Shown: in pieces, positions 6,618 to 30,400 of the stretch | Layout of the letters: every line of letters starts with the position of its first letter | Position numbering within the stretch: the stretch's first letter is position 1 | Source of the DNA: an uncultured Eubacteriales bacterium | Lineage (GTDB): Bacteria > Bacillota > Clostridia > Peptostreptococcales > Anaerovoracaceae | Length of the DNA: 64,000 bases | Reading direction: 5' to 3' | NCBI GenBank assembly: GCA_900315895.1 | Contig: ONAY01000011.1 | Coordinates: forward strand, 21,082 to 85,081 | Program-made: the position numbers and the translations under genes | The notes under the pieces: generated by a model | Seen by the model: only the letters and a program-made list of their open reading frames with translations | What the model was told of the DNA's origin: nothing | Database searches by the model: none

Positions 6618-7187
6618 CTATTGTCCGTCAGCCCAGTTGAATAGTTCTCTCAAGTGTCCGGCTTTGGCCTTGCCCACGGGCTTTGAGACACCCTTCATGT
6701 AATCGTCGTATTTGAGGACTGTAGCCTCGAAGCCGTCCTCTCTGGTGTTCAGTATGGCAAAGGTCCCGCCGGACCTGTCTCTGGGCTTCGATATGCTTCC
6801 CGGATTCAGCAAAAGAAACCCGTCCACATCCACGTTTTCCGACCGGTGGGTGTGGCCAAAGATGGCGCCGGTGCAGTCGTATCTTGCGGCTGTCTCATAG
6901 ATATCTTCGTTGCTGTAACCCACGTTGTACATATTGCCGTGGGTCACGAAGAAGTCTCCCGCCTCGGTCTCCAGAATGGCGAACTCGTCTCTCGTGAAGG
7001 AGCGGTCGCAGTTTCCCTTGACGGCCACGGTCTCTATACCGAACATGTTGCCCAGCTTCACGGCATCCTCGTAGTAGTCGCCGCAGTGGACCAGGACGTC
7101 CAGGGGACCGGCTTTTTTTAGATTTCTTATGACGGCCTCAGCACGACTGAGGTCGTGGTGAGTATCGCTGATCACCAGTATTTTCAT
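6618..7187 (-). CDS. YfcE/MJ0936-type metallophosphoesterase
   Basis: 189-residue calcineurin-like phosphoesterase of the small YfcE type. Metal-binding motifs appear in order: DTHHD (residues 8-12), HCGDYYED (about 34-41), KGNCDR (about 58-63), THGNMY and GHTHRSE (about 111-117). This family hydrolyses phosphodiesters with Mn or Ni in the cytoplasm; the natural substrate is unknown. AGAGGAAAAC precedes the ATG. It is the first gene of the minus-strand group and is divergent from the AI-2E transporter gene at 7377. Confidence 0.9.
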
Positions 7188-7290
7188 GTTTTCCTCTTAT
7201 ATTGTAGAGTCTTATGGAGTGGCCCGGCGCGCATTATTAAAGGTAAATCACAGCGCAGTGCGGGCAGTTATGACTATATCACAAATCTAG

Positions 7291-7319
7291 TTCCCAGGCA
7301 AACGGCTTTATGATATAAT
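7291..7319 (+). promoter_or_regulatory. Promoter with extended -10 before the AI-2E/murB/rapZ unit
   Basis: TGATATAAT (7311-7319) gives an extended -10. TTCCCA (7291-7296), spaced 17 bp, is a weak -35. It lies about 58 bp upstream of the first ATG in the divergent intergenic region. Confidence 0.7.
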
Positions 7320-7376
7320 ATATCTGTTAAAGTAGCGCTCTGAACAAGCAGATGCTTATCTGCGGAGGGTCACAGC

Positions 7377-8684
7377 ATGGACAAGGAAACCAAAAAGTTC
7401 AGTATCAAATCTTGGAAAAAAGGCGGATATTTCAAGGCGGGACTCACCATATTCCTCGTGGGTCTGGCTCTGATCATCTGCCATTACTACATAAGCCATT
7501 TCGGTGTAGTAAAAGCAGGGTGGAACAATTTAAACAGCATACTCATGCCATTCTACATAGGACTGATCATGGCTTATCTCCTTTGCCCTATATACAACTG
7601 GGCGGTGGGCTGGCTTTTCAAACTGATCAAGACCAAGACCAAGACTCAGCCGAAGGCGCTGAAGCTTTCCAGAATATTCGGTACCGTGGTGGCTCTCGTC
7701 GTGATGTTTGCGGTGCTTACAGGCTTCGTGATGCTGATAATCCCCAATCTTTATGAAAGCATAGTCGGTTTGGTGGAAAGGATGCCCGGATATTTCGACC
7801 AGACCACCAAACTCATCGAAAACGGCGCCAATTCAGACAATCAGATAGTGCAGTACATCGCAGGCAACATGGAGAATCTGTCCGAGAAGATCACCGCCTG
7901 GTTCGAGGAGAAGGTGCTGCCGGCATCCACCGAGATAGTTTCCTTCGTATCCTCCAGAGTGGTGTCCACCATCAAGGGCGTAGTGAACTTCTTCGTGGCA
8001 ATGATCATCTGCGTATACATCCTTAACTCCAAGGAGAAGTTCATCGCACAGGGCAAAAAACTCATCCTGGCTATCTTCTCCAAGGAAAGGGCAGACAGAC
8101 TCTTTGAGCTTGGCAGGCTCACCAATACCACCTTCGGCGGATTCATCTCAGGTAAGGTCATCGATTCCATCATAATCGGCATCCTCTGCTACATACTGAT
8201 GAGGATACTGTCCATACCCATGGCGGTGCTGGTCTCAGTGATCATCGGTGTGACCAATGTGATCCCCTTCTTCGGACCCATCATCGGCGCGATCCCCTGT
8301 GCACTGCTCCTTGTGATCATCAACCCCATCGCGGCCCTCAAGTTCGTCGTAATGGCTCTGGCCCTTCAGACTGTGGACGGCAACATCATCGGACCCAAGA
8401 TCCTTGGCAAGACCACCAGGCTACAGAGCTTCTGGGTAATGTTCGCCATCATCGTCGGAGGCGGACTCTTCGGATTCCTGGGCATGATCCTGGGCGTGCC
8501 GCTGTTCGCAGTGATCTATACCTACTGTTCAAGAGCGGTGAACAATTCACTTAAAAAGAAAGATATTGAAACGAATACATTGACATATGAAGACTTCTCA
8601 AAATATGAGATAGATAAGGCGGAGGTCTTCGGAAAGGCAGCTGAACCATATGGAACTGATGGACCTGAAAAGAAAACTGAGTGA
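7377..8684 (+). CDS. AI-2E family transporter (YtvI/PerM-like membrane protein)
   Basis: 435-residue integral membrane protein. Hydrophobic segments occur near residues 22-42, 55-80, 98-125, 205-225, 260-300, 305-330 and 355-395. The conserved tail PFFGPIIGAIP followed by IGPKILGKTTRLQSFWV is diagnostic of the AI-2E/UPF0118 family. Members have been implicated in export of small molecules or in ion antiport; this one's substrate cannot be read from sequence. GGAGGG lies upstream of the ATG. The 3' end overlaps murB by 35 bp, so translation of the two is probably coupled. Confidence 0.9.
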   Translation: MDKETKKFSIKSWKKGGYFKAGLTIFLVGLALIICHYYISHFGVVKAGWNNLNSILMPFYIGLIMAYLLCPIYNWAVGWLFKLIKTKTKTQPKALKLSRIFGTVVALVVMFAVLTGFVMLIIPNLYESIVGLVERMPGYFDQTTKLIENGANSDNQIVQYIAGNMENLSEKITAWFEEKVLPASTEIVSFVSSRVVSTIKGVVNFFVAMIICVYILNSKEKFIAQGKKLILAIFSKERADRLFELGRLTNTTFGGFISGKVIDSIIIGILCYILMRILSIPMAVLVSVIIGVTNVIPFFGPIIGAIPCALLLVIINPIAALKFVVMALALQTVDGNIIGPKILGKTTRLQSFWVMFAIIVGGGLFGFLGMILGVPLFAVIYTYCSRAVNNSLKKKDIETNTLTYEDFSKYEIDKAEVFGKAAEPYGTDGPEKKTE

Positions 8685-9612
8685 GATATGTCCCTCCCTT
8701 GAAAACAGGATCAGGGAGAACGTACCCATGTCATCCTACTGCTCCTTTAGGGCAGGGGGATGCGCCGGACTTTTCATAGAACCCGCCACCGTGGAAGAAC
8801 TCAGGGCGGTCCTGGGGACAGTGACGGAGATGGGCATCCCTCACATCATCCTCGGAAACGGCACCAACACTCTTTTCGAAGACGGCACCTATGAAGGTGC
8901 AGTCATAAGGCTGGACAATTCCTCTGAGGATTTCGGAGGAATAGAGATATTCGTATCTCCCGAAGATGAGGACAATATCATCTTAAGGGCAGGAGCAGGG
9001 GCGCTTTTGGCCAAAGCATCAAAAATGGCGGCAGCGGAACCCTGGTCTGCCACAGGCATGGAAGGACTTTCGGGGATCCCCGGCTCCATAGGAGGCGCAG
9101 TATTCATGAACGCCGGAGCCTACGGATACGAGACAGGCAAGGTGCTCAAGTCAGTCCACGCCGTATCCTCGGATGGATCAGAGGAAAGGGACTTCACCAA
9201 GGATGAAGTGATGCCGGGATACAGGCACTCTTCCTTCATGGAAAACGGATACATCATTACTTCTGCAGAGTTCTCCCTTTTCAGGGATAAGCAGGAGGAT
9301 ATCCAGGACAGGATATCAGACTATACCAAGGCCCGCACTGAGAAGCAGCCCCTGAACTTCCCATCTGCCGGCTCCACCTTCAAGAGGCCCGAAGGCCATT
9401 TTGCAGGCAAACTCATAGAAGAGGCGGGGCTAAAAGGAACATCAGTGGGCGGCGCACAGGTATCTCAGCTTCACGCCGGGTTCGTGGTGAACACCGGAGG
9501 AGCCACGGCCACGGATATTTTGGACCTGATAGAGCTTGTGAAGGAAAGGGTCCTGGAGAATTCCGGAGTGACCCTTGAGCCTGAGGTCAGGATCATAAGG
9601 AGCGGCAGGTAG
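8650..9612 (+). CDS. murB: UDP-N-acetylenolpyruvoylglucosamine reductase
   Basis: 320 residues. FAD-dependent reduction of UDP-GlcNAc-enolpyruvate to UDP-MurNAc in peptidoglycan synthesis. The N-terminal FAD domain has ILGNGTNTLF and the conserved GMEGLSGIPGSIGGAVFMNA. The C-terminal domain has the proton-donor serine in SAGSTFKRP and the catalytic glutamate in LEPEVRII near the end. The start overlaps the AI-2E gene; an alternative ATG at 8659 is possible. It opens the conserved murB-PHP-rapZ-whiA neighbourhood of Gram-positives. Confidence 0.95.
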   Translation: MELMDLKRKLSEICPSLENRIRENVPMSSYCSFRAGGCAGLFIEPATVEELRAVLGTVTEMGIPHIILGNGTNTLFEDGTYEGAVIRLDNSSEDFGGIEIFVSPEDEDNIILRAGAGALLAKASKMAAAEPWSATGMEGLSGIPGSIGGAVFMNAGAYGYETGKVLKSVHAVSSDGSEERDFTKDEVMPGYRHSSFMENGYIITSAEFSLFRDKQEDIQDRISDYTKARTEKQPLNFPSAGSTFKRPEGHFAGKLIEEAGLKGTSVGGAQVSQLHAGFVVNTGGATATDILDLIELVKERVLENSGVTLEPEVRIIRSGR

Positions 9613-19928: not shown

Positions 19929-21309
19929 AGAATACAGAACGATCAGTGAAGTCGTAGGACCTCTGATGCTGGTCCGTGACGTGGAAGACGTCACATACGA
20001 CGAGCTGGGAGAGATACTTCTTCCCTCCGGAGAAGTCAGGCTCTGCAAGGTGCTTGAGATAGACGGACATAACGCTCTGGTCCAGCTCTTCGAAGCGTCC
20101 ACCGGAATCAACCTTAAGGAATCAACTGTAAGGTTCCTGGGTCACGGTACGGAGCTTGCCGTATCAAAGGACATGCTCGGAAGAGTATTCGACGGAATGG
20201 GAAGACCCACAGACGGCGGTCCGGATATCATTCCGGAAAAGATGCTTGATATCAACGGACTTCCCATGAACCCGGCAGCCCGTGACTATCCTGCAGAATT
20301 CATTCAGACAGGCGTATCCGCCATCGATGGACTGAACACTCTGGTAAGAGGCCAGAAGCTTCCCATCTTCTCCGCATCCGGACTTCCCCATGCGGAGCTG
20401 GCGGCACAGATAGCCAGACAGGCTAAGGTAATAGGTGCCGACGCAGGCAATTTCGCTGTAGTTTTCGCAGCCATAGGTATCACCTATGAAGAGGCTGAAT
20501 TCTTCGCCAGCGACTTCAGACGCACAGGGGCCATCGACAGAACGGTAATGTTCATGAACCTGGCCAATGACCCTGCGGTAGAGCGTATCGCGACGCCCAG
20601 AATGGCCCTTACGGCCGCTGAGTATCTGGCATTCGACCTGGGCATGCACGTTCTGGTAATCATGACGGATATCACCAACTATGCAGAGGCTCTTCGTGAG
20701 GTATCCGCTGCTAAGAAGGAGGTACCCGGAAGAAGAGGATATCCCGGATATCTTTACACCGACCTTGCGACCCTCTATGAGAGAGCGGGAAGGAAGAAGG
20801 GAAGCGCAGGATCCATCACCATGATCCCGATCCTGACCATGCCTGAAGAGGATAAGACCCACCCGATCCCGGACCTTACCGGATACATCACTGAGGGTCA
20901 GATAATCCTCTCCCGTGACCTTTACCGTAAAGCCATCCAGCCGCCCATCGACGTGCTGCCTTCGCTTTCCAGGTTAAAGGACAAGGGAATCGGCAAGGGC
21001 AAGACCCGTGAAGATCACGCAGATACCATGAACCAGCTCTTTGCGGCATATGCCAAGGGAAAGGAAAACCTGGAACTGGTGGCGATCCTCGGAGAATCCG
21101 CCCTTTCAGAGATCGACCTTAAATATGCAGAATTCTCCCAGGAATTCGAAAGAAGATACGTATCTCAGGGTTACGAGACAGACAGGTCCATCGAAGAGAC
21201 GCTGAATCTGGGCTGGGATCTTTTGAGGATACTTCCCAGATCCGAACTTAAGCGTATCAAGGACCAGTATCTGGATCAGTATTACGGAGAAAAAACTGAC
21301 GCTGAGTAA
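19921..21309 (+). CDS. ntpB: V-type ATP synthase regulatory subunit B
   Basis: 462 residues. Non-catalytic nucleotide-binding subunit. In place of a P-loop it has [19 protein letters not shown] (about residues 143-161), typical of B subunits. [15 protein letters not shown] and [18 protein letters not shown] are strongly conserved. AAGGAGG lies upstream, within the end of subunit A. It is followed by subunit D after 14 bp. Confidence 0.98.
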
Positions 21310-21323
21310 GCGGAGGAGGCAAC

Positions 21324-22088
21324 ATGGAAAGATTAAATGTCAATCCAACCAGAATGATGCTCTCTACGCTGAAGAAGCGTTTGGCCACATCCGTCAGAGG
21401 ACACAAGCTCCTCAAGGATAAACGTGACGAGCTCATGAAGGAGTTCCTGGAACTGGCAAGACAGAACAAGGAGCTCAGGGACGAGGTGGAGAAACAGCTC
21501 ATGTCGGTCTACGGCAGCTTTTCCATCGCATCCGCAGTCATGAGCAAGGAAAACCTTGAAGAGGCTCTGATGTATCCCAAGCAGGGCGTAGAACTTGAAG
21601 TAGGCAATCAGAACGTCATGAGCGTCAACGTGCCGGTGTTCAAGTTCAAGACCACAGCGGAGGATCCCACGGATATCTATCCCTATGGATATGCGGATAC
21701 CTCCGGAGAACTGGACCTGGCTCTGGATGATCTGTCCGGGATCTTCCCCCTGATGCTGCAGCTTGCGGCCAAGGAGAAGGAAGCCCAGATGCTGGCTGCG
21801 GAGCTGGAGCGTACCAGAAGAAGGGTAAACGCCCTGGAGTACGTGAAGATCCCTCAGCTGGAGATGACCATCAGATACATCAGGATGAAGCTTGATGAAA
21901 ATGAGAGAGGCAACCAGACCCGACTCATGAAGGTCAAGGATATGATCCTCAATGAAGCCATCAAAGAGAGACGTGACCGTTACGAAAAGGCGTACAGCGA
22001 GAGCGTCAGCCCCGGCGAGAAGGCCAGGGCAAAGAGAGAGGCTGCGGAATTTGAGACCAGCAGCAAAAGACCTGCAGGCGGCAACTGA
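21324..22088 (+). CDS. ntpD: V-type ATP synthase subunit D (central stalk)
   Basis: 254 residues, long N- and C-terminal helices forming the rotor shaft. The block [27 protein letters not shown] (starting at residue 5) is diagnostic, as is [17 protein letters not shown] in the C-terminal helix. The C-terminal tail after residue 225 is Lys/Arg/Glu-rich and somewhat longer than in the shortest family members. CGGAGGAGG precedes the ATG. It is the last operon gene and is followed by a terminator. Confidence 0.96.
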
Positions 22089-22123
22089 TGCGGCTTGAAG
22101 GGAGAGCAAAAAATATAAGTACT

Positions 22124-22163
22124 TCATGGAGGTGGGGGATCACTCACCTCCATTGAGTTTTTT
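22124..22163 (+). terminator. Terminator of the V-type ATP synthase operon
   Basis: Perfect 9-bp stem ATGGAGGTG/CACCTCCAT with a 10-base loop, followed by GAGTTTTTT, 36 bp after the last stop. Confidence 0.8.
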
Positions 22164-22178
22164 ACGAGAGATCTGATC

Positions 22179-23531
22179 ATGGAAAAAGGAAAGGTAGTAA
22201 AACTTCATATTGAGGATATGAGCTCCGAGGGGAGCGGCATAGGCAGGTCCGATGGACAGGTGGTGTTCGTGGAGAACTGCGTAAAAGGCGACACCGTAAA
22301 GGCCAGGATCACGAAGGCCAAGAAGAACTATGCCCTGGCGGAGTGCCTGGAGATAGTAGAGCCATCAGGATCGAGGATCCATGGTTTTTGCCCCTACGCT
22401 AAAGAGTGCGGAGGTTGCCCCTTAGGAGATATGGAATATGAGGCTCAGCTTGAGATCAAGGAAGGCTGGGTCAGAGACAAACTGGAGAGGATAGGGGGCC
22501 TTCAGGCGCCGGTGGTGAGACCCATCATCGGAATGGAGGAACCCTTCAGATACAGAAATAAGGCTGAATTCAAGGTGGGACCCATGGGGGAGGTGGGATT
22601 TTTTGCGCGGAAGTCCCACAGAGTCATAGACTGCCCCGACTGCAGGATCCAGAGGCAGGAGATCATGGGCGTGGCAGATGGACTTAGACAGTACCTGGCT
22701 GAATTCGGCAATGGTGCAGGGATCAAGGGCATGACGGTCAAGATGTCCTTCGGAACAGGGGAGATGATGGCTATTCTGGAGGCCAGATCCGATGACGTAC
22801 CCTATCTGGAAGAGCTCTGCGGGTACATGAATGAAGGCTCGGGATACAATCTGGAGAGCATATTCATAAATGAGGAATTGGTGGCCGGAAGATCGGTAAT
22901 AAGCGATGAGATGGAGGGGCTCAAATTCGAGATCTCCAGGGATTCTTTTTACCAGGTGAACCCTGCACAGACCGCAAAACTTTACGGGAAAGCCGTGGAA
23001 TATGCGGATGTGAAGGAGGGGCATACCGTTCTGGATCTCTACTGCGGAGTGGGTACCATAGGCTTGTTTGCGGCGAGGACCGTGGGGAACGACGGACTGG
23101 TACTGGGCATCGAGACAGTGAAACAAGCGGTGCTGGACGCTAACCGCAATTCGGTGATAAACGGCATAGTATGCACCAGATATATCCAGGGAAAAGCCGA
23201 GGAGGAGCTTCCGGCGGTACTGGGCATCAGGCCCAAAATGGGTTATGATGGGGAAAACAGACTGGTGGAAAAGGAGCCTGTGATCAGGATCAGCCATGCA
23301 GATGTGGCCTTTGTGGACCCTCCCCGGGCCGGATGTGAGGAGACACTGCTGGAGGCAGTAGCAGAAGCCGGACCGGACAGGATCGTCTACGTTTCATGCG
23401 ATCCTGCAACCCTTGCAAGAGATGTGAAGTATCTGGAGGAGAGGGGATATTGCTTTGTGGAGGCCCAGCCCGTGGACATGTTCTGTCATACAGGGCATGT
23501 GGAAACGGTTGTATTGATGACGCGAGTTTAA
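22179..23531 (+). CDS. rlmD: 23S rRNA (uracil-5-)-methyltransferase, RlmD/RumA family
   Basis: 450 residues. An N-terminal TRAM domain (about residues 1-58) is followed by Fe-S cysteines in GFCPYAKECGGCPLG. The SAM-binding motif is LDLYCGVGTIGLFAA (about 286-300). The PPRAG block and the catalytic cysteine in VSCDPATLARD are near residues 380-410. It methylates a uridine in 23S rRNA (U1939 or U747 type; bacteria with one copy may differ). Its 3' end, encoding DMFCHTGHVETVVLMTRV, is where an accessory region begins, with displaced copies of such tails at 24060-24119 and 24796-24902. The gene itself is intact. Confidence 0.93.
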   Translation: MEKGKVVKLHIEDMSSEGSGIGRSDGQVVFVENCVKGDTVKARITKAKKNYALAECLEIVEPSGSRIHGFCPYAKECGGCPLGDMEYEAQLEIKEGWVRDKLERIGGLQAPVVRPIIGMEEPFRYRNKAEFKVGPMGEVGFFARKSHRVIDCPDCRIQRQEIMGVADGLRQYLAEFGNGAGIKGMTVKMSFGTGEMMAILEARSDDVPYLEELCGYMNEGSGYNLESIFINEELVAGRSVISDEMEGLKFEISRDSFYQVNPAQTAKLYGKAVEYADVKEGHTVLDLYCGVGTIGLFAARTVGNDGLVLGIETVKQAVLDANRNSVINGIVCTRYIQGKAEEELPAVLGIRPKMGYDGENRLVEKEPVIRISHADVAFVDPPRAGCEETLLEAVAEAGPDRIVYVSCDPATLARDVKYLEERGYCFVEAQPVDMFCHTGHVETVVLMTRV

Positions 23532-23569
23532 TATGTAATTAATCAGAGTGGAAACGGAGGGTTTGTGCA

Positions 23570-23965
23570 ATGGGTGTTTTAAGAAGTAAAAAACAACCGG
23601 AATTGACAGAAGCGCAAAAGAAAATCAACAAGCTATGGGAAATGTATGATTCGGGGAAACTTGCGGAGACAGATTACAGCACATTTGTTTTGTGTGAATA
23701 TGAGAGCGGTGTAAACGGCGAAGGACACAGCGGATGGTTTTTCAATATAGAAAACACAGAAGGAAAAGAAGCAATCAACAAAATCCTTTATGCTTTGGAA
23801 GAAGTATTGCCAACCCATTTGTATGACAATCTCAATAAAGCATTTCGTTCATACGGCACGGAAGACGAAGAAGACGTTTGTGACTCGGCAGATAATTACT
23901 TCTATGAACATGAACAAGTAATACTCGAGTATTTGCAAGGAGTCGCAAATCGCCTTGATTTATAA
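23570..23965 (+). CDS. DUF4375/DMP19-like small protein, accessory
   Basis: 131 residues, acidic, with no signal or membrane segment. The pattern YSTFVLCEYESGVNGEGHSGWF and the C-terminal helices resemble DUF4375 (DMP19-like) proteins, which often occur near toxin or immunity genes; this assignment is from memory and moderate. Codon use (AAA, AAT, TTG, CAA) is clearly AT-richer than that of the V-ATPase and rlmD genes, a sign of recent transfer. CGGAGG precedes the ATG. It lies between the true rlmD 3' end and the first displaced rlmD tail. Confidence 0.6.
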   Translation: MGVLRSKKQPELTEAQKKINKLWEMYDSGKLAETDYSTFVLCEYESGVNGEGHSGWFFNIENTEGKEAINKILYALEEVLPTHLYDNLNKAFRSYGTEDEEDVCDSADNYFYEHEQVILEYLQGVANRLDL

Positions 23966-23973
23966 TCTGTAAT

Positions 23974-23993
23974 ATCAACGCCGTTGCCTCGAC
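23974..23993 (-). repeat. Inverted copy of an rlmD-tail sequence
   Basis: Read on the minus strand this 20-mer matches 24814-24833 (plus strand) at 18 of 20 positions and would encode VEATAL. This is like the HVETVVL end of the methyltransferase. Confidence 0.5.
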
Positions 23994-24011
23994 CATTTTG
24001 GAAAGTGGAAA

Positions 24012-24119
24012 CTTCTCCACGAGGATGGACGAGCAATCAGCGTAAATAGACACCGTTCTATTCACGCTATTGTCCCAAGGCACGTGGAGACAGTTACGTT
24101 GATCACTCGAGCCGGGTAG
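24012..24119 (+). repeat. Displaced rlmD 3'-end remnant, copy R1
   Basis: The codons at 24072-24119 read V P R H V E T V T L I T R A G stop, a good match to the C-terminus of RlmD-type proteins. It has no upstream gene body. The surrounding 105-108 bp are an imperfect direct repeat of 24797-24902; the last 44 bp (24060-24103 against 24846-24889) differ at only four positions. It lies between two accessory genes. Confidence 0.65.
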
Positions 24120-24157
24120 AGTGTACAGAATTGGTAATTGTGTATGGAGAGCAGACA

Positions 24158-24730
24158 ATGAAATGCGTTCCGGATTATTTAGAAAAGTATGCTTATGATA
24201 TAAGCACCAAAAAAGATAAAGTCACTTTCAAGTTAAAGTGTACTTGTGGCTGCCAATCTTTTGACGTATTAAAAAATCATTATACAGCCGAAGAAGAACG
24301 ATTGGTCTTCGAATATGAAAAGAGTTTGCCAAGAACAGGGTGGCATTCAATATACTGTGGTATAGACGCAAATGGAAACCAATATAGCTATATCAAGATT
24401 CTCGGCTTATTCAAAAAATATGTGAAGTACCCAAAAGCGCCATACTTTGTGGGGATCGAAGTGATAAAGGCTATCTGTAAAAATTGTAAAAATGAGATCA
24501 TTGTTTTTGACAACAGATTACACGGTCTCTCATCCATCTCTGATATATCAGAAGAAGAACGAAACTATCTTCCCCATTTTGACATAGGAGACGGTAAATC
24601 GGGAAAAGTTGTCATGGTATTGGAACAAGACGGAAACGAAGAAAATGAACCGCAACTGTTTACCGGAATCCAAATTTACATTGATGCGGGTAATAAAAGA
24701 AGGTTGTTCTATGGTCAGGAGACAGATTAA
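24158..24730 (+). CDS. Cysteine-rich, probable zinc-binding accessory protein
   Basis: 190 residues from ATG 24158 (MKCVPDYL), preceded by GGAGAG; an in-frame TTG 27 bases further up has no site. It has a CxCxC motif (CTCGC, about residues 28-32) and a later CKNC (about 111-114), so a zinc-ribbon-like or CpXC-like fold is plausible. I do not recognise a named family with certainty. Codon use is very AT-rich compared with the core genes. It is enclosed between the two ~105-bp repeats carrying rlmD tails. An orphan immunity-type role is a guess from context. Confidence 0.55.
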   Translation: MKCVPDYLEKYAYDISTKKDKVTFKLKCTCGCQSFDVLKNHYTAEEERLVFEYEKSLPRTGWHSIYCGIDANGNQYSYIKILGLFKKYVKYPKAPYFVGIEVIKAICKNCKNEIIVFDNRLHGLSSISDISEEERNYLPHFDIGDGKSGKVVMVLEQDGNEENEPQLFTGIQIYIDAGNKRRLFYGQETD

Positions 24731-24795
24731 AACTTTTAAAACCATTGTTTTTCCTCATATTGAGACTTAATACTAACTAATATGTGATCAACGGC

Positions 24796-24902
24796 ATGTT
24801 CTTTACGAGGCGGGTCGAGACAACAGCGTTGATAACGGCATTTTTATTCACGATATTGTCCCAAGGCACGTGGAGACGATTGCGTTGATGACAAAGAAAT
24901 AA
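24796..24902 (+). repeat. Displaced rlmD 3'-end remnants, copy R2 (two tails)
   Basis: Two tails lie back to back. The codons at 24796-24837 read M F F T R R V E T T A L I T. The codons at 24858-24902 read V P R H V E T I A L M T K K stop. Both resemble the end of RlmD (DMFxHTxHVETVVLMT). Positions 24797-24902 form the second copy of the ~105-bp direct repeat, the first being at 24012-24119. Confidence 0.65.
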
Positions 24903-24928
24903 TCAAATCGAAATTTGTAGAGGTGAGC

Positions 24929-25453
24929 ATGATGTTGGAATTACTGAAAGCGAGATTTTTAGAACACAAGGAACTTCATCAGGATTTGGAATGGTTTGAG
25001 GTAGAGCGTAGGCTGCACGAGGCTCCCACCGCCATCGCGGTCCTGCAAAAGATGGAGGAAAGCGGCGGTGAGCCGGACACCATCGGCTATGACGACAAAA
25101 CGGGAAAGCTTATTTTCTGTGACTGCGCAAAGGAGTCCCCTTCCGGGCGTAGAAGCCTGTGCTATGACGAAAAAGCTTTGCAAGGGCGCACTAAAAACCC
25201 GCCTTCAGGTAGCGCAGAACAGAAGGCGAAAGAGATCGGCGTTTCGATGATGACAGAGGAGCTTTATCGTAGATTGCAAAGTCTCGGCTCATTTGATCTG
25301 AAAACGTCAAGCTGGATCGCTACGCCGGATGATATCCGCAGTAAGGGCGGGGCGCTGTTCTGCGAACGGCGCTATGATACCGTGTTCACTTTTCACAACG
25401 GCGCGGATTCCTACTATTCTGTGCGCGGTTTCAGAGGATATATTCTTATTTGA
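24929..25453 (+). CDS. DUF4256 family protein
   Basis: 174 residues from ATG 24929 (AGAGGTGA just upstream; GTG 24923 is the alternative). The family pattern is clear: HQDLEWFEVERRL, EESGGEPDTIGYD, CDCAKESPSGRRSLCYD, then ELYRRLQSLGSFDLKTSSW and the C-terminal GGALFCERRYDTVF...YYSVRGFRG. DUF4256 proteins are common single-gene cytoplasmic proteins of Firmicutes and Bacteroidetes with no known function. Composition is more GC-balanced than the two preceding accessory genes, so it may have a separate origin. It follows directly after the last rlmD tail. Confidence 0.88.
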   Translation: MMLELLKARFLEHKELHQDLEWFEVERRLHEAPTAIAVLQKMEESGGEPDTIGYDDKTGKLIFCDCAKESPSGRRSLCYDEKALQGRTKNPPSGSAEQKAKEIGVSMMTEELYRRLQSLGSFDLKTSSWIATPDDIRSKGGALFCERRYDTVFTFHNGADSYYSVRGFRGYILI

Positions 25454-25578
25454 GTACGGACTCAATAGTAAAATCGCTGCGGTTTCATGGACTGTAGAAT
25501 TGACTACTTCCGGGTTTCCGATCCGGAAATCGTTTTGTACAAAGGAAGATAGATCCCGAGGCGGGGGAGGTATTATGG

Positions 25579-26058
25579 ATGAGAGTGGGAAAGAAGAAAG
25601 TTTTAAAAGTCATAATTTGCATATTGTTGCTTTTCGTTGTGATCAACGCATGCTGGTATGTCTGGCGCATGGTGAAATACGAGCCTTTCACGAAGGGGAT
25701 GGAAAAGTCTGAAATTCCTGAATTTTTGGTACCGCGATATTATTCTATGGATGCCGATGGCTACGACTATAGTGTAAAATATCCGGACTACCTTTCATTT
25801 ACAGGAAATCTCTGCGTGGGATTGCCTACAACTGATGAGAATGTTTTCACGGATTTTCTCATCATATGGCCGAAACTGTTTGGCGAGTACGAGTATGGTG
25901 TATCACTCAATGCAGAGGGTGAGACTTATCAGATCTATATCAACTCGGATGGCAGTCCCGTTGATCCCCGGTACAGCGAAATTGTGAATGAATATAAAGA
26001 TACCATAGATGACCTGCTCTCAAGAGCAAAAGAAATGTGGGATATTGATCGGTCTTGA
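25579..26058 (+). CDS. Small membrane-anchored protein of unknown function
   Basis: 159 residues with a basic N-terminus (MRVGKKKVLK) and one hydrophobic segment (about residues 9-28). The remainder, mostly acidic, would be outside the membrane. GGGGGAGG lies 8 bp before the ATG; an overlapping ATG four bases upstream is in another frame. No family recognised. It lies between the rlmD-linked accessory genes and an ABC transporter pair and may belong to the same variable region. Confidence 0.5.
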   Translation: MRVGKKKVLKVIICILLLFVVINACWYVWRMVKYEPFTKGMEKSEIPEFLVPRYYSMDADGYDYSVKYPDYLSFTGNLCVGLPTTDENVFTDFLIIWPKLFGEYEYGVSLNAEGETYQIYINSDGSPVDPRYSEIVNEYKDTIDDLLSRAKEMWDIDRS

Positions 26059-26165
26059 CGCAACCAAACTTTACAAAACACCAATAATTCTGTAATGTGT
26101 GGTTGGTAGATATTGACGCAACCGCAGACTACAATATTCGTATAAATCAAATTTTGGAGGTTGCC

Positions 26166-26888
26166 ATGAATATTGTAGAGGTACAGGATCTTGTAAAGAA
26201 GTATCCTGCATTTGAACTAAAGGATGTGTCCTTCGGCCTTGAGAGCGGAAGGATCACAGGCTTTATCGGCAGAAACGGCGCAGGCAAGACCACAACGATC
26301 AAGGCGATGCTGAACTTGATCCATCCTGATTCCGGAGATGTTCGATATTTTGGAAGTCCTCTCCTAAAAAGTGAGGCGGACATCAAGAAGCGCATCGGCT
26401 ATTCCACGGGTACGGTCAGCTGGTATCCGAGAAAGAGGATAAGAGACATTGTAAGTATCGTAAAAAGGTTTTATGATACATGGGATGAGGCTGCATATAG
26501 AAAGTACCTGGATCTCTTCGCCTTGGACGAAATGAAAACACCCCTGGAGCTGTCCGAGGGCATGAAGGTGAAGCTGAACCTGCTGCTGGCGCTCTCCCAT
26601 AGGTCTGAGGTACTGATCCTGGACGAGCCCACCAGCGGTCTGGATCCCTTCTCCAGAAACGAGCTTCTTGAGATCTTTGAAGATCTGAAGAAGGAGGGCG
26701 TGGCCGTATTTTTCTCCACACACATCATATCGGATATCGAGAAGTGTGCGGACGACATAATCTATATCTCAAAGGGCAGAATAGTTGCGGCTATGGACAA
26801 GGATGCCTTTATCCGGCAGTATTCGGAAGAGGGAGAGACCCTTGAGGAAACTATGCTCAGGCTGGAAGGAGGTGTGGACCATGACTAA
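26166..26888 (+). CDS. ABC transporter ATP-binding protein
   Basis: 240 residues from ATG 26166, preceded by TTTTGGAGG; the longer upstream frame has no site. Walker A GRNGAGKTT at 35-43, signature LSEGM at 129-133 (divergent from LSGGQ), Walker B ILDEPTSGLD at 151-160, H186 switch. This is the small ATPase type paired with ABC2_membrane_5 permeases in Firmicutes. Its 3' end overlaps the permease by 8 bp. The same unit encodes an XRE-AbrB regulator, so the transporter is probably controlled locally. Confidence 0.88.
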   Translation: MNIVEVQDLVKKYPAFELKDVSFGLESGRITGFIGRNGAGKTTTIKAMLNLIHPDSGDVRYFGSPLLKSEADIKKRIGYSTGTVSWYPRKRIRDIVSIVKRFYDTWDEAAYRKYLDLFALDEMKTPLELSEGMKVKLNLLLALSHRSEVLILDEPTSGLDPFSRNELLEIFEDLKKEGVAVFFSTHIISDIEKCADDIIYISKGRIVAAMDKDAFIRQYSEEGETLEETMLRLEGGVDHD

Positions 26889-27534
26889 CGCACTCCTTAA
26901 AGAAATGAAGCTCAGCGCATCCATACTCTCATATCTTTTCATAGCTTTTGGCTTGATGTTTCTTGTGCCGGGCTATCCCATACTCTGCGGAGCCTTCTTT
27001 GTGTCGCTGGGACTTTTCCAGAGTTTTCAGTGGGCCAGGGAAGCTAATGACATTGTATTTTCCTCCTTGCTTCCAATAGCAAAGAGGGATGTGGTCGTGG
27101 CAAAATACTTGTTTGTCTGCATGATCGAAGGCTGCGGGATAATTTTGATGGGTATCTCGGTTATCCTCAGAATGACCGTATTCGCAGACTCTGACATATA
27201 TAGAAGCAATGCATTGATGAATGCCAACCTGTTTGCGTTAGGCGTGGCCTTCGTGATATTCGGCATCTTCAACTGGATATTCGTAGGGGGCTTTTTCAAA
27301 ACAGCATATAAGTTCGCAGGCCCATTCGTCAGATTCATCATCGTGGCCTTCGTGATCATATTCTTGGCTGAAGCTGTGCATCATGTGCCTGGTCTGGAAT
27401 TCATGAACGCTTTTGGCACGGATCATATGGGATCTCAGTTGATCTCGCTGGCGGCGGGTGTTTTGATATATATGGCATTGACCATCTTATCATGCAGGAA
27501 GGCATGTAAGGATTTCGAAGAAATAGATCTATAG
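26881..27534 (+). CDS. ABC-2 type permease (ABC2_membrane_5-like)
   Basis: 217 residues from ATG 26881, inside the end of the ATPase gene with GGAGG upstream; earlier in-frame starts would overlap the ATPase by about 100 bp. Six hydrophobic segments (about 13-32, 35-50, 77-95, 117-135, 145-165, 190-207). The block SLLPIAKRDVVVAKYLFV is typical of these permeases. It pairs with the upstream ATPase to form an exporter, probably of a peptide or lipid-active compound; the substrate is not visible. Confidence 0.82.
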   Translation: MTNALLKEMKLSASILSYLFIAFGLMFLVPGYPILCGAFFVSLGLFQSFQWAREANDIVFSSLLPIAKRDVVVAKYLFVCMIEGCGIILMGISVILRMTVFADSDIYRSNALMNANLFALGVAFVIFGIFNWIFVGGFFKTAYKFAGPFVRFIIVAFVIIFLAEAVHHVPGLEFMNAFGTDHMGSQLISLAAGVLIYMALTILSCRKACKDFEEIDL

Positions 27535-27544
27535 GGGGAGAGAG

Positions 27545-27982
27545 ATGCTTAAAGATAATCTTGTAATGCTTCGCAACATCCATGGATTTTCTCAGGAAGC
27601 GGTGGCGGAAAAAATAGGCATTTCAAGGCAGGCCTATGCAAAATGGGAGACCGGTGCCACCGTCCCTGATATTGAGAAATGCAATCTTCTGGCTGAGATG
27701 TACGGGACCTCCATTGACAGTCTGGTAAAGACTGAACCTGTGGAAGGGGTGGGTATACTGCCTCCCGCACCGAAGGGGAAGAACATATGGGGGTCTGTGG
27801 CCATAAATGACAGAGGGCAGATCGTCATTCCGAAGGGCGCCAGAGATATGTTCGGCTTGACGGGAGGGCAGCGCCTGATCGTTCTAAGCGATGAATACGG
27901 GATCGCCCTGATACCGGATGAAGCTTTCATGGCCAATATGAATAAGGCCATGGAGAACATGAATAGAAATGTCGAAGAATAG
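27545..27982 (+). CDS. XRE-type HTH regulator fused to an AbrB/SpoVT DNA-binding domain
   Basis: 145 residues. Residues 1-60 are a Cro/C1-type helix-turn-helix (GFSQEAVAEKIGISRQAYAKWE). Residues 80-125 are an AbrB-like swapped-hairpin domain (AINDRGQIVIPKGARDMFGL). A short linker with PPAP joins them. AbrB domains usually mediate dimerisation and DNA binding, so the protein carries two DNA-binding modules. It starts 10 bp after the permease with GGGGGAGAG, and is likely the local regulator of the transporter operon. Confidence 0.88.
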   Translation: MLKDNLVMLRNIHGFSQEAVAEKIGISRQAYAKWETGATVPDIEKCNLLAEMYGTSIDSLVKTEPVEGVGILPPAPKGKNIWGSVAINDRGQIVIPKGARDMFGLTGGQRLIVLSDEYGIALIPDEAFMANMNKAMENMNRNVEE

Positions 27983-27985
27983 TAA

Positions 27986-29143
27986 ATGAGCAAAAAAATC
28001 ATAGCAGTAAATGCCGAACCAAAAGAGAAAAAAGTAGAATATCTGGAACTGATCTATGATCTGATATTCGTATACATAGTTGGGCGCAACAATTCCCTTT
28101 TGCAGCATATCGAGGGAGGATTCGTGTCCGGAGGAGTGTTCTTGGGATACCTTCTGGGGACACTGGCCATAATACAGATCTGGAACTTTTCCACCTTCTA
28201 TATCAACCACTATGGCAGAAACGGAGTGAGGGATCATGTATTCCTTTTTCTGAACATGTTCCTGCTGTACTTCATGGGTGAAGCCACGGACATCGCTTGG
28301 CAGTCTACGTTCTACATGTACTCCGCATCCTGGGCATTGATCCTCATAAATATTGGGATCCAGTATCTGATCGAGATCAGAAATCACAGAGATGAACCGG
28401 GAACGGTGGTGTTTCTAAAGCAGTATGCGGTCACGTTATTTGTGGAGGCAGGCCTGGTCGGGGTGCATATGTTGGTTTATACGTTTTCCGGCGCATCTAT
28501 TGCATATGTACCCATCATTTTCGGCATCGTAGCCATGCGCATCCGAGGCAAGAAGGATATGTTGGTGCCGGTTGATTTTCCGCATCTCTCGGAGAGAGCC
28601 ATGCTGTACGTGGTATTCACCTTCGGAGAGATGATCATAGTCCTTGCGACATACTTCAGAGGTGAGTTCACGCTGAACTCATTGTATTTCTCCACCATGG
28701 CCTTTATTATCGTCATAGGACTTCTTCTGAGCTACGGCCTGATGTACAACCGGCTGCTGGACAGGGAGAGGGACACGGACGGCACAGAATACATGTTTTT
28801 CCATGTCTTCCTCATATTCTCCTTAAATAACATTTCGGCGTCTCTGGAGTTCATGAGGGAGGAAGAGGTGTCGCTTGTGCCTAAGACAGTTTTCCTTGTG
28901 ATATCCTTTGTGCTGTACTTCGTATTTCTCTTCCTTCTTGGGAAGTACAACAGAGCAAAATACACATTCAGCAGTAAGTTTATCTTAGTCATGGCTTTGG
29001 TGACAGCAGGATTCGCAGCCCTGATGATCCTATTAAGACAAAACATGTACTTAAACATTGCGTTGAGTGCAGTATATGTTTTTGGAATATTTCTTACCCT
29101 GTATCTTTTATACAAGAAAAATGGGGAGCAGGATCATATTTGA
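27986..29143 (+). CDS. Low temperature requirement protein A (LtrA) family membrane protein
   Basis: 385 residues with about ten to twelve hydrophobic helices. The N-terminal signature VEYLELIYDLIFVYIVGRNN (from about residue 15) is the LtrA hallmark, and PVDFPHLSERAMLYVVFTFGEMIIV (around 195) is the second conserved block. LtrA was named from a Listeria mutant; the molecular function is unknown. It starts 3 bp after the regulator without a clear ribosome binding site, so it may depend on translation of the upstream gene. Confidence 0.85.
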   Translation: MSKKIIAVNAEPKEKKVEYLELIYDLIFVYIVGRNNSLLQHIEGGFVSGGVFLGYLLGTLAIIQIWNFSTFYINHYGRNGVRDHVFLFLNMFLLYFMGEATDIAWQSTFYMYSASWALILINIGIQYLIEIRNHRDEPGTVVFLKQYAVTLFVEAGLVGVHMLVYTFSGASIAYVPIIFGIVAMRIRGKKDMLVPVDFPHLSERAMLYVVFTFGEMIIVLATYFRGEFTLNSLYFSTMAFIIVIGLLLSYGLMYNRLLDRERDTDGTEYMFFHVFLIFSLNNISASLEFMREEEVSLVPKTVFLVISFVLYFVFLFLLGKYNRAKYTFSSKFILVMALVTAGFAALMILLRQNMYLNIALSAVYVFGIFLTLYLLYKKNGEQDHI

Positions 29144-29191
29144 TGCAGCTGAACTTAAGGAATGGCAGTGACAACTAGGGAGGACTTTGGG

Positions 29192-29674
29192 ATGAAAAAA
29201 CTAATAGATCAGCTTAACGTAGATCTTTCGGATATTTATGACAAGTACATGAGCAGGGTCAACAACGTTGCTTCATTGTTCATTGATTATGACATTCCGG
29301 AGCCATCAGAGTCAGACCTTGGAAAGAAGCCGGAAGATCCGGAGGGAGTCATAAATAACGGCATTGGCGACTGGCTCATGGAGTGTTCCTTCGATGACCG
29401 GGCAGTGCTAAGAGACATGGTGCAGAAAGAAACTGATGACCTTGGGCCCGATGAAGCAGGGGTGATGGCCATGGAGACCCTGGGCGGCAAGCTTGCAGAC
29501 AGGATCATGGAGCTTATCAACGATTGCAAAGGCGAGGTCTTTATGCTCACTGAAAAAGGCGCGGATAAGTATTATCCGGACTGGTATATCATATACTATG
29601 ATATGATCGGGATGATACATCTGAGGGAGCCTGAGGAGTGCTGGGCCCTGATCTGTGCCAACTGGAGCGACTAG
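29192..29674 (+). CDS. Unrecognised cytoplasmic protein
   Basis: 160 residues from ATG 29192, preceded by GGGAGG; an ATG 30 bases upstream in frame has no site. Acidic, helical, no signal or membrane segment. The middle part (CSFDDRAVLRDMVQKETDDLG) and the tail (YPDWYIIYYDMIGMIHLREPEEC) are not known to me. It is co-oriented with LtrA and the AlkD-like gene (21 bp downstream), so it is likely in the same transcript. Confidence 0.5.
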   Translation: MKKLIDQLNVDLSDIYDKYMSRVNNVASLFIDYDIPEPSESDLGKKPEDPEGVINNGIGDWLMECSFDDRAVLRDMVQKETDDLGPDEAGVMAMETLGGKLADRIMELINDCKGEVFMLTEKGADKYYPDWYIIYYDMIGMIHLREPEECWALICANWSD

Positions 29675-29695
29675 TTCCTCCAAAGGAGAATGCCG

Positions 29696-30400
29696 ATGAA
29701 TGAAAAGAAAAACAAGGTCGCTTCGGAACTCTTCGAAATGAGAGATCCCAAGTACGCTGAGGGACAAAGGAATATAATACCTACGGTTGATCCCGAAAGG
29801 ATCATAGGCGTGAGGACGCCGGCCCTTAGGGACTATGCCAAGGTCCTCAGCAAAGAGGAGGGGGTCAAGGTTTTTCTCGCAGATCTGCCTCATGGATTTT
29901 TTGATGAGGATCAGGTCCATGCCTTCGTGATATCTCTTGAGAAGGATTTCAACAAGTGTGCGGAGGAGGTGGAGACCTTTCTACCCTACATCGATAACTG
30001 GGCCACCTGCGACCAGATGTCTCCCAAAGTCTTCAAAAGGACTCCGGAGAAACTTCTGCCTTACATCAACAGGTGGATCGCATCCGATAAGACATACACC
30101 ATACGTTTCGGTATCAAGATGCTTATGGAACATTTCCTGGGAGACAGGTTCAGCACGGAGTATCCGGACATGGTTACAAACGTACAGTCTGATGAGTATT
30201 ATGTGAACATGATGCGGGCCTGGTATTTTGCTACAGCTCTTGCTAAGCAGTACGAGGCGGTGATCCCATATATCGAGGAAAAGCGACTGGATGACTGGAC
30301 CCATAACAAGGCCATCCAGAAGAGCATAGAAAGCTATAGAATTACCGATGAACAGAAGGCGTACCTCAGGACACTGAAGGTCGCAAAACATAATAAATAA
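29696..30400 (+). CDS. DNA alkylation repair protein, AlkD-like
   Basis: 234 residues from ATG 29696: AAGGAG is 7 bases upstream of it but only one base from the ATG at 29690. All-helical HEAT-like repeats with the family blocks GVRTPALRDYAK (about 37-48), IDNWATCDQMSPKVFK (about 100-115) and YFATALAKQYEAVIPYIE. AlkD-type proteins are glycosylases that remove bulky or cationic alkyl bases; some relatives have lost activity. The W/D in NWATCD corresponds to the conserved active-site cleft. Confidence 0.85.
   Translation: MNEKKNKVASELFEMRDPKYAEGQRNIIPTVDPERIIGVRTPALRDYAKVLSKEEGVKVFLADLPHGFFDEDQVHAFVISLEKDFNKCAEEVETFLPYIDNWATCDQMSPKVFKRTPEKLLPYINRWIASDKTYTIRFGIKMLMEHFLGDRFSTEYPDMVTNVQSDEYYVNMMRAWYFATALAKQYEAVIPYIEEKRLDDWTHNKAIQKSIESYRITDEQKAYLRTLKVAKHNK

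Follow-up and report, generated by a model that had tools for sequence, protein, structure and literature searches.

The stretch analysed here (the window) comprises 64 kb of contig ONAY01000011.1 from an uncultured Eubacteriales bacterium (assembly GCA_900315895.1), and our subject is the region directly behind its rlmD gene, where short sequences resembling the rlmD 3' end, here called tails, recur between small genes. The initial annotation regarded this arrangement as an rlmD-anchored insertion hot spot, and the comparison with other genomes points the same way: with a probability of roughly 0.87, the rlmD 3' end is an attachment site behind which integrase-less relics of serine-integrase elements are stacked. 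The anchor gene and its associated sites are given below in window positions; G and L numbers denote compared genomes and loci.

22179..23531, + strand: intact rlmD, the anchor gene, 23S rRNA uracil-5-methyltransferase (open, complete frame; Pfam tRNA_U5-meth_tr and TRAM)
23499..23521, + strand: putative attachment core in the rlmD 3' end, coding VETVVLMT (matrix score 26.7; homology stops at 23503 in G001 and at 23509 in G005)
23974..23993, - strand: putative inverted half-site at the start of unit 1 (18/20 against inverted 24814-24833; similar at L003:1456-1475 in the unit on contig C5)
24057..24079, - strand: putative left (P-type) half-site of junction 1, an inverted repeat of the core (12/23 at gap 4, reached by 0.6% of window positions)
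24084..24106, + strand: tail core, junction 1 (matrix score 16.6)
24814..24836, + strand: degenerate extra half-site within unit 2 (matrix score 9.4, alone inside the null range)
24843..24865, - strand: putative left (P-type) half-site of junction 2 (13/23 at gap 4, reached by 0.2% of window positions)
24870..24892, + strand: tail core, junction 2 (matrix score 22.4; 24886-24922 is 84% identical to the 37 bp directly after the rlmD core of G001)

Cores were detected with a position-weight matrix for the 23-nt core, trained on 29 distinct tails of other genomes, and judged against twenty 64-kb first-order Markov sequences, among which the best score was 14.6. The three top-scoring positions of the window are the rlmD core and the two tail cores, which share its orientation and each close one of two related units. 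Two of the three tails originally claimed (24072-24119 and 24858-24902) therefore hold by score, and the third (24796-24837) does not hold alone, its 9.4 lying below an unrelated position, 12041, at 9.9. The imperfect direct repeats described at the outset were recovered, 24013-24106 and 24799-24892 agreeing at 72 of 94 positions (77%), with 44/94 at the second-best place for the 94-mer in the window; their final 44 bp (24063-24106 vs 24849-24892) differ at five positions, not four. The inverted 20-mer was likewise confirmed, the runners-up to its 18 matches reaching 14 on that strand and 16 on the other, and it is best read as an inverted recombinase half-site rather than as a separate insertion.

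Alignment of the rlmD downstream region across relatives, proposed earlier as a check, revealed that homology breaks at the cores. The alignment of G001, a genome of the same genus, passes through rlmD, stops inside the first core and restarts directly behind the third; the two cassettes of the window thus sit between cores. Behind its 37-bp leader G001 has a different gene (beta-lactamase-like by eye). Different cargo in relatives was also found in G005, likewise of this genus, where the ABC transporter region resumes at 26060 and the interval between it and rlmD holds a GNAT-like gene (by eye), one tail and a TfoX-like gene (34% amino acid identity to the TfoX of contig C5), with no alignment to the cargo genes of the window. 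Tails do recur elsewhere behind rlmD, as had been anticipated: in 211 kb behind the 38 rlmD genes parsed (20 of the 58 loci failed the rlmD-end parser and were excluded), extra tails numbered 12 on the same strand and 0 on the opposite one, a count which speaks for strand asymmetry and not for prevalence, since L163, L166, L168, L175 and L176 were picked for isolated tails and W and L021 belong to the source genome; moreover, the L196 tail seems to lie inside a second rlmD-like gene, and the regex missed the window core at 24084. A looser tail pattern, matching at least 161 of 296 family genomes, was discarded as a measure of prevalence for being unspecific, since rlmD or an unrelated protein (VETIFLMT) accounts for many of the matches.

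Contig C5 of the source genome carries a second tail array; a third copy of the unit was found there among small genes directly behind the genome's second rlmD-family gene.

L021:16374, 16557, 16599, 16629 and 17828: C5 tails (matrix scores 14.3-37.2)
L021:18399: C5 tail (matrix score 6.3)
C5 small-gene row: RhuM/Fic, two genes without family, GNAT, a weak metallopeptidase match under the cut-off, one gene without family, TfoX_N and NUDIX

The first C5 tail is preceded in frame by RFEFRVDYDAEAGGKVLLNEND, and 88 bp at this place (C5 16297-16384, the final 11 bp in the core) have 93% identity to the 3'-terminal part of a large serine recombinase (LSR) gene on viral contig L280, a 580-codon open frame with Resolvase, Recombinase and zinc-ribbon domains. 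As C5 and L280 differ upstream of 16297, the remainder of the LSR gene is missing from C5; the same remnant occurs in G021, of another genus, at 85% over 86 bp. Judged from its sequence, this apparent remnant is direct evidence of a lost integrase at the second array. Of the mechanisms suggested initially, integrase loss thus finds its example here, and for the units of the window both loss and action in trans are possible.

Junction anatomy was examined in 46 isolated tails, a few rlmD ends cut by contig edges (L232, L238) being counted as isolated. A gap of 4 is the only one at which their left 23 nt look like the core in reverse complement (0.432; the remaining gaps between 0 and 20 give 0.205-0.314), and the 42 sites outside the source genome give 0.435 at that gap vs 0.259 after shuffling (sd 0.014, maximum 0.301, 2000 shuffles). 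Isolated tails thus appear to carry an inverted half-site, as expected of the junctions of a site-specific recombinase.

Serine recombinases occupy the same site elsewhere. In G289, G008 and G088 (loci L173, L165, L180) and in Streptococcus phage Javan105, whose integrase ends DNDKQVECVVLM and carries the core at the 3' end, LSR frames run into the core and end there; by regex, this is also the case in 4 of 28 viral stretches (L236, L241, L249, L255). Compact elements were found as well: a serine recombinase of 308-310 aa is all that separates rlmD from the tail in G603 (1303 bp from core to core) and G412 (1200 bp), the compact cassettes of L243 and L250 consist of recombinase and one gene, and G513 has three tandem units, each with its own recombinase. 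Compact-cassette loci seen so far are L269 (G513), L271 (G603), L273 (G412), L250, L243 and L240. The ~308-aa serine recombinase ends about where the zinc ribbon would start, the L250 enzyme matching Resolvase and Recombinase domains with no zinc-ribbon match, and a relative 52% identical adjoins the LSR in Javan105; presumably active, the compact enzyme could also be a helper. All ten closed intervals of 1.2-4.6 kb with a AAATAGCCTAA arm (nine distinct, L240 being the same cassette as the first L269 unit) hold a compact recombinase as recognised by motif regex, six of them (three in L269, then L271, L273 and L277, whose frame is 269 aa) having been found via the recombinase search and the other four (L163, L240, L243, L250) via tail patterns. 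The arms of the window are not of the AAATAGCCTAA type and come without a recombinase, and the window is not among these compact cassettes.

One cassette was encountered in two contexts. Positions 3916-6567 of L240 and 6692-9389 of reversed L269, the first G513 unit, are 98.2% identical (2698 columns, 3 mismatches, one gap), and their recombinase genes are identical (927/927). Exact identity starts 3 nt before the core and the alignment ends in the far core; left of the shared cassette lie rlmD in G513 and a different sequence with a dyad arm in viral contig L240. The pair shows, as far as sequence can tell, that rlmD and an isolated core of the window type would both serve as targets, which explains the stacking.

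The genes carried between and behind the window's cores are these.

23570..23965, + strand: cassette 1 cargo, 131 aa, weak DMP19-like match slightly under the Pfam cut-off (GC 0.39)
24131..24730, + strand: cassette 2 cargo, 199 aa, starting with TTG, with a further ATG in frame at 24158 (without Pfam family at E 0.001; GC 0.36)
24923..25453, + strand: cassette 3 cargo, DUF4256 protein, GTG start (Pfam E 3.6e-78; homologue at 69% amino acid identity inside the rlmD array of G254)
25579..26058, + strand: 159-aa open reading frame (ORF) within the variable interval, no tail behind it, membership uncertain (G005 synteny resumes at 26060; no homologue in other loci at E 1e-6)
26097..26888, + strand: ABC transporter ATPase, conserved far flank, outside the cassettes (75% amino acid identity to G005; DNA synteny from 26060)

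Measured against rlmD (GC 0.53) and the window (0.51), the two genes between tails are AT-rich, as the initial annotation had it; the DUF4256 gene, behind the last tail, is not (0.51). Each closed interval of the window has one ORF of at least 70 aa, neither of a conjugation or phage structural family, and the reported absence of an integrase was upheld, the four ORFs tested from rlmD up to the ABC gene showing no match to any integrase family. Over 33 closed intervals, not all of which contain an ORF, the direction of rlmD is shared by 73 ORFs and opposed by 9. TfoX_N genes recur behind rlmD-family genes or cores, that of C5 showing 76-88% DNA identity to those of G079, G289 and G254; between C5 and G079 the TfoX genes are 88% identical, and the alignable parts of the adjacent rlmD paralogues only 69-72%. 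An anti-phage role of the cargo was considered and dropped: the three window proteins tested have no PADLOC match (E 0.01), and 3 of 7 other cargo proteins match, namely the RhuM/Fic protein and two weaker ones. This RhuM and Fic domain protein (L021:13586-14530) matches the PADLOC candidate family PDC-S23 at E 1.4e-126 and has relatives in several other loci.

The core breaks in G001 and G005, the dyad junctions, the second array with its LSR remnant, the recombinases at the site and the cassette in two contexts all bear out the hot spot, and the window array looks like the worn trace of serine-integrase elements docking at rlmD. The rlmD 3' end would act as the attB of such elements; integration would split the site, rlmD taking the element's right half-site, which codes an equivalent C-terminus so that the gene stays whole, and the other junction (the element's left half-site with an rlmD-like tail core) would be pushed downstream, itself a possible target. 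Repeated integration would then stack cassettes, each ending in a tail. The integrase genes would since have gone from the source genome, leaving cassettes 1 and 2, together with the DUF4256 gene that follows the final tail, as integrase-less relics, or as passengers formerly moved in trans. Since no serine integrase is found in the interval or the genome, the array of the window would be relic or passenger, not an autonomous element. The order of events, the former mobility of the window's cassettes and the enzyme for its arm type are what we infer.

A number of observations weigh against docking by serine-integrase elements or narrow its basis. No PF00239 resolvase match was obtained in the source genome, which is 87% complete; none of the eight closed intervals with a window-type dyad arm (two of them the window's own, the counts by arm type including duplicates in L166, L233 and L237, as dyad sites score on both strands) holds a recombinase by regex; and no LSR 3' end was found that matches the left arms of the window. 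The dyad control is small, its six rlmD ends giving 0.261 at gap 4, and it peaks at a different gap (0.370 at gap 11). One of the three claimed tails, 24814-24836, is alone within noise, the window's own half-site type is seldom met as an exact pattern (5 of 349 family genomes, 6 places in all), and the cassettes of the window have no repeated-half-site leader of the kind described below. The search for a strain with an empty site, suggested from the beginning, yielded none that was fully empty, G001 having another gene there. All seven genomes of the genus are drafts (56-220 contigs each). The contigs that carry rlmD in G001, G006 and G004 break off less than 500 bp from the gene, as do 9 of the 38 parsed loci; the unit was sought at DNA level in six genomes of the genus and not found.

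Ordinary homologous recombination through the repeated tails, exchanging cargo with no site-specific enzyme, would fit the repetition of tails and units as well as the missing PF00239 match, and we consider it unlikely, because the cores are just 23 nt long, the units only 77% identical, the breakpoints fall in the core, the junction dyads keep one fixed gap, and elsewhere recombinase genes end in or adjoin the same junctions. Considerably less probable still is an integron-like system, in which a tyrosine integrase would move the ~130-bp units as folded sites resembling attC. The small same-strand genes, the GNAT, NUDIX and TfoX cargo of C5, the terminal inverted half-sites and the four PF00589 proteins of the source genome are in its favour, as is the good single-strand folding of unit 1 (z -3.3); yet attC-like folding, computed for the given strand, was rejected as inconsistent over the three copies (z -1.7 for unit 2, +0.9 for the C5 unit), no integrase family is found in the four ORFs of the interval, and the sister array on C5 contains an LSR 3'-end remnant. 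That the repeats are regulatory or RNA elements, or resemble the rlmD end by chance, is scarcely credible: they do lie between genes, and the leader of relatives is conserved at fixed positions, but there is no Rfam match at gathering thresholds, the leader alignment has no pair changed on both sides, and the repeat and two core scores exceed the null. A promoter role and an attachment role of the repeats could be compatible.

The leader just mentioned is a stretch of ~255 bp behind the cores of relatives. In G254, four or five repeated half-sites (GGTTGAG...TTTAGATGT) follow each of four cores. A matrix from 11 distinct G254 repeats found 92 matches in 34.7 kb behind the cores of other loci vs 33 in 2,221 kb elsewhere, with at least one in 42 of 94 post-core stretches and at least two in 29 of 94, a count that included L280-L285, found by the leader pattern itself; when these were omitted, 76 matches in 32.4 kb stood against 29 in 2,168 kb (38 of 88 stretches with at least one, 25 of 88 with at least two), and the offsets clustered at 150-159, 180-189, 210-219 and 250-259. 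Leaders of this kind, 30-400 nt after the core and with 3-4 half-sites at stereotyped offsets, were seen in L170, L178, L201, L217, L269, L280 and others; they share a conserved GGgAACatATC block and occur in elements with different recombinases. The exact repeat pattern finds little over the class (3 of 391 genomes). On C5 the leader is degenerate, with 84% identity over 134 bp to that of G079. An RNA structure was not sustained for the leader (17-leader alignment, six predicted pairs, none changed on both sides), nor was a known RNA family, as neither window 21000-30000 nor five leader loci had a match reaching an Rfam gathering threshold.

These leaders and the compact elements raise the thought, to which we would give somewhat less than even odds, that rlmD paralogues of Clostridia anchor an integron-like cassette system not yet described, of which the window would be a non-autonomous, worn end. 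Its cassettes would share the ~255-bp left end, made of the core and 3-4 repeated half-sites, for the most part near 150, 180, 210 and 250 nt beyond it, followed by a gene in the direction of rlmD. Some would carry the compact ~308-aa recombinase without zinc ribbon, and others, with arms only, would be moved in trans; rlmD would be the fixed platform and perhaps the promoter, each tail a new target so that arrays grow, and the repeated half-sites might bind the recombinase or a partner, controlling integration.

Among known systems, staphylococcal cassette chromosome (SCC) elements use serine recombinases at the rlmH 3' end and form tandem arrays bounded by repeated site ends, some members lacking a recombinase. 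The likeness lies in the 3' end of an rRNA methyltransferase gene and in the arrays; SCC differs in gene, enzyme family (Ccr) and site, and the window falls outside, having no PF00239 match and rlmD, not rlmH, as its target. Integron cassette arrays without an integrase also consist of small same-strand genes separated by sites, and differ from our array, which has no consistent site folding and traces of serine, not tyrosine, recombinases. No conjugation or phage structural genes lie between the window junctions, which sets the array apart from integrative and conjugative elements (ICEs) and prophages.

That rlmD/rumA is a target of serine integrases is, in principle, already published for streptococci, and the precedent named in the initial annotation is thereby in print. 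According to PMC4701971, single serine integrases target streptococcal rumA, with one repeat in rumA and the other in the integrase gene, and the 3' parts are exchanged. The window shares with these ICEs the target gene and end, the direct repeat and the reciprocal 3' exchange, its insertion lying in the 3' end of rlmD and the core recurring at the far junction; a far junction in an integrase 3' end is represented by the remnant on C5, with no such match found for the window arms. The streptococcal elements, as presented there, are conjugative with their own integrase, whereas the window has single-gene cassettes without one. The rum hot spot of S. suis (PMC5053989), where tandem accretion and defective ICEs are reported, resembles the window in gathering several elements at the 3' end, in tandem accretion and in decay to defective elements; it differs in that those described there are ICEs, prophages and tandem mobile elements instead of short gene cassettes. 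An Erysipelothrix prophage, phiEr670, is flanked by rlmD according to PMC12785378, and both it and Javan105 are whole prophages, unlike the window cassettes. Among the titles and abstract beginnings listed (few subscription papers and no bioRxiv preprints covered) we found no description of recombinase-less single-gene arrays, of 1.2-4.6 kb cassettes with a ~308-aa recombinase or of the ~255-bp leader, a silence that is weak evidence of novelty. In uncultured gut Clostridia, a known docking site of large mobile elements appears also to gather small genes one by one into ordered arrays. Should the compact cassettes and the leader hold up, they would form a serine-recombinase counterpart of integrons; accessory genes might then be found by searching behind rlmD, and genetic tools might draw on a small recombinase whose site is defined. 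This wider cassette system merits its own survey.

Some minor observations concern the rlmD end and contig C5. A near-identical unusual C-terminus, HVETVCCLYHQKKD(F/Y)ISV.YEPK, is found on different rlmD paralogues, in L125 (RlmD of G005), L207 (RlmD of G067) and L127 (second paralogue of G006), a pattern that C-terminal swapping by integration would leave. In L192:3000-3133 and in L228 (reversed, with its tail at 873), a stack of decayed fragments similar to the upstream rlmD end lies left of the tail (MFPHT, DMFSHT; DIFPYT, VDLF), which suggests nested integration scars. Finally, direct repeats with 53-bp spacing, built on TTGACCCA/TGGGTCA, lie at L021:9173-9529, upstream of a 484-aa gene that is nucleotidase-like by eye.

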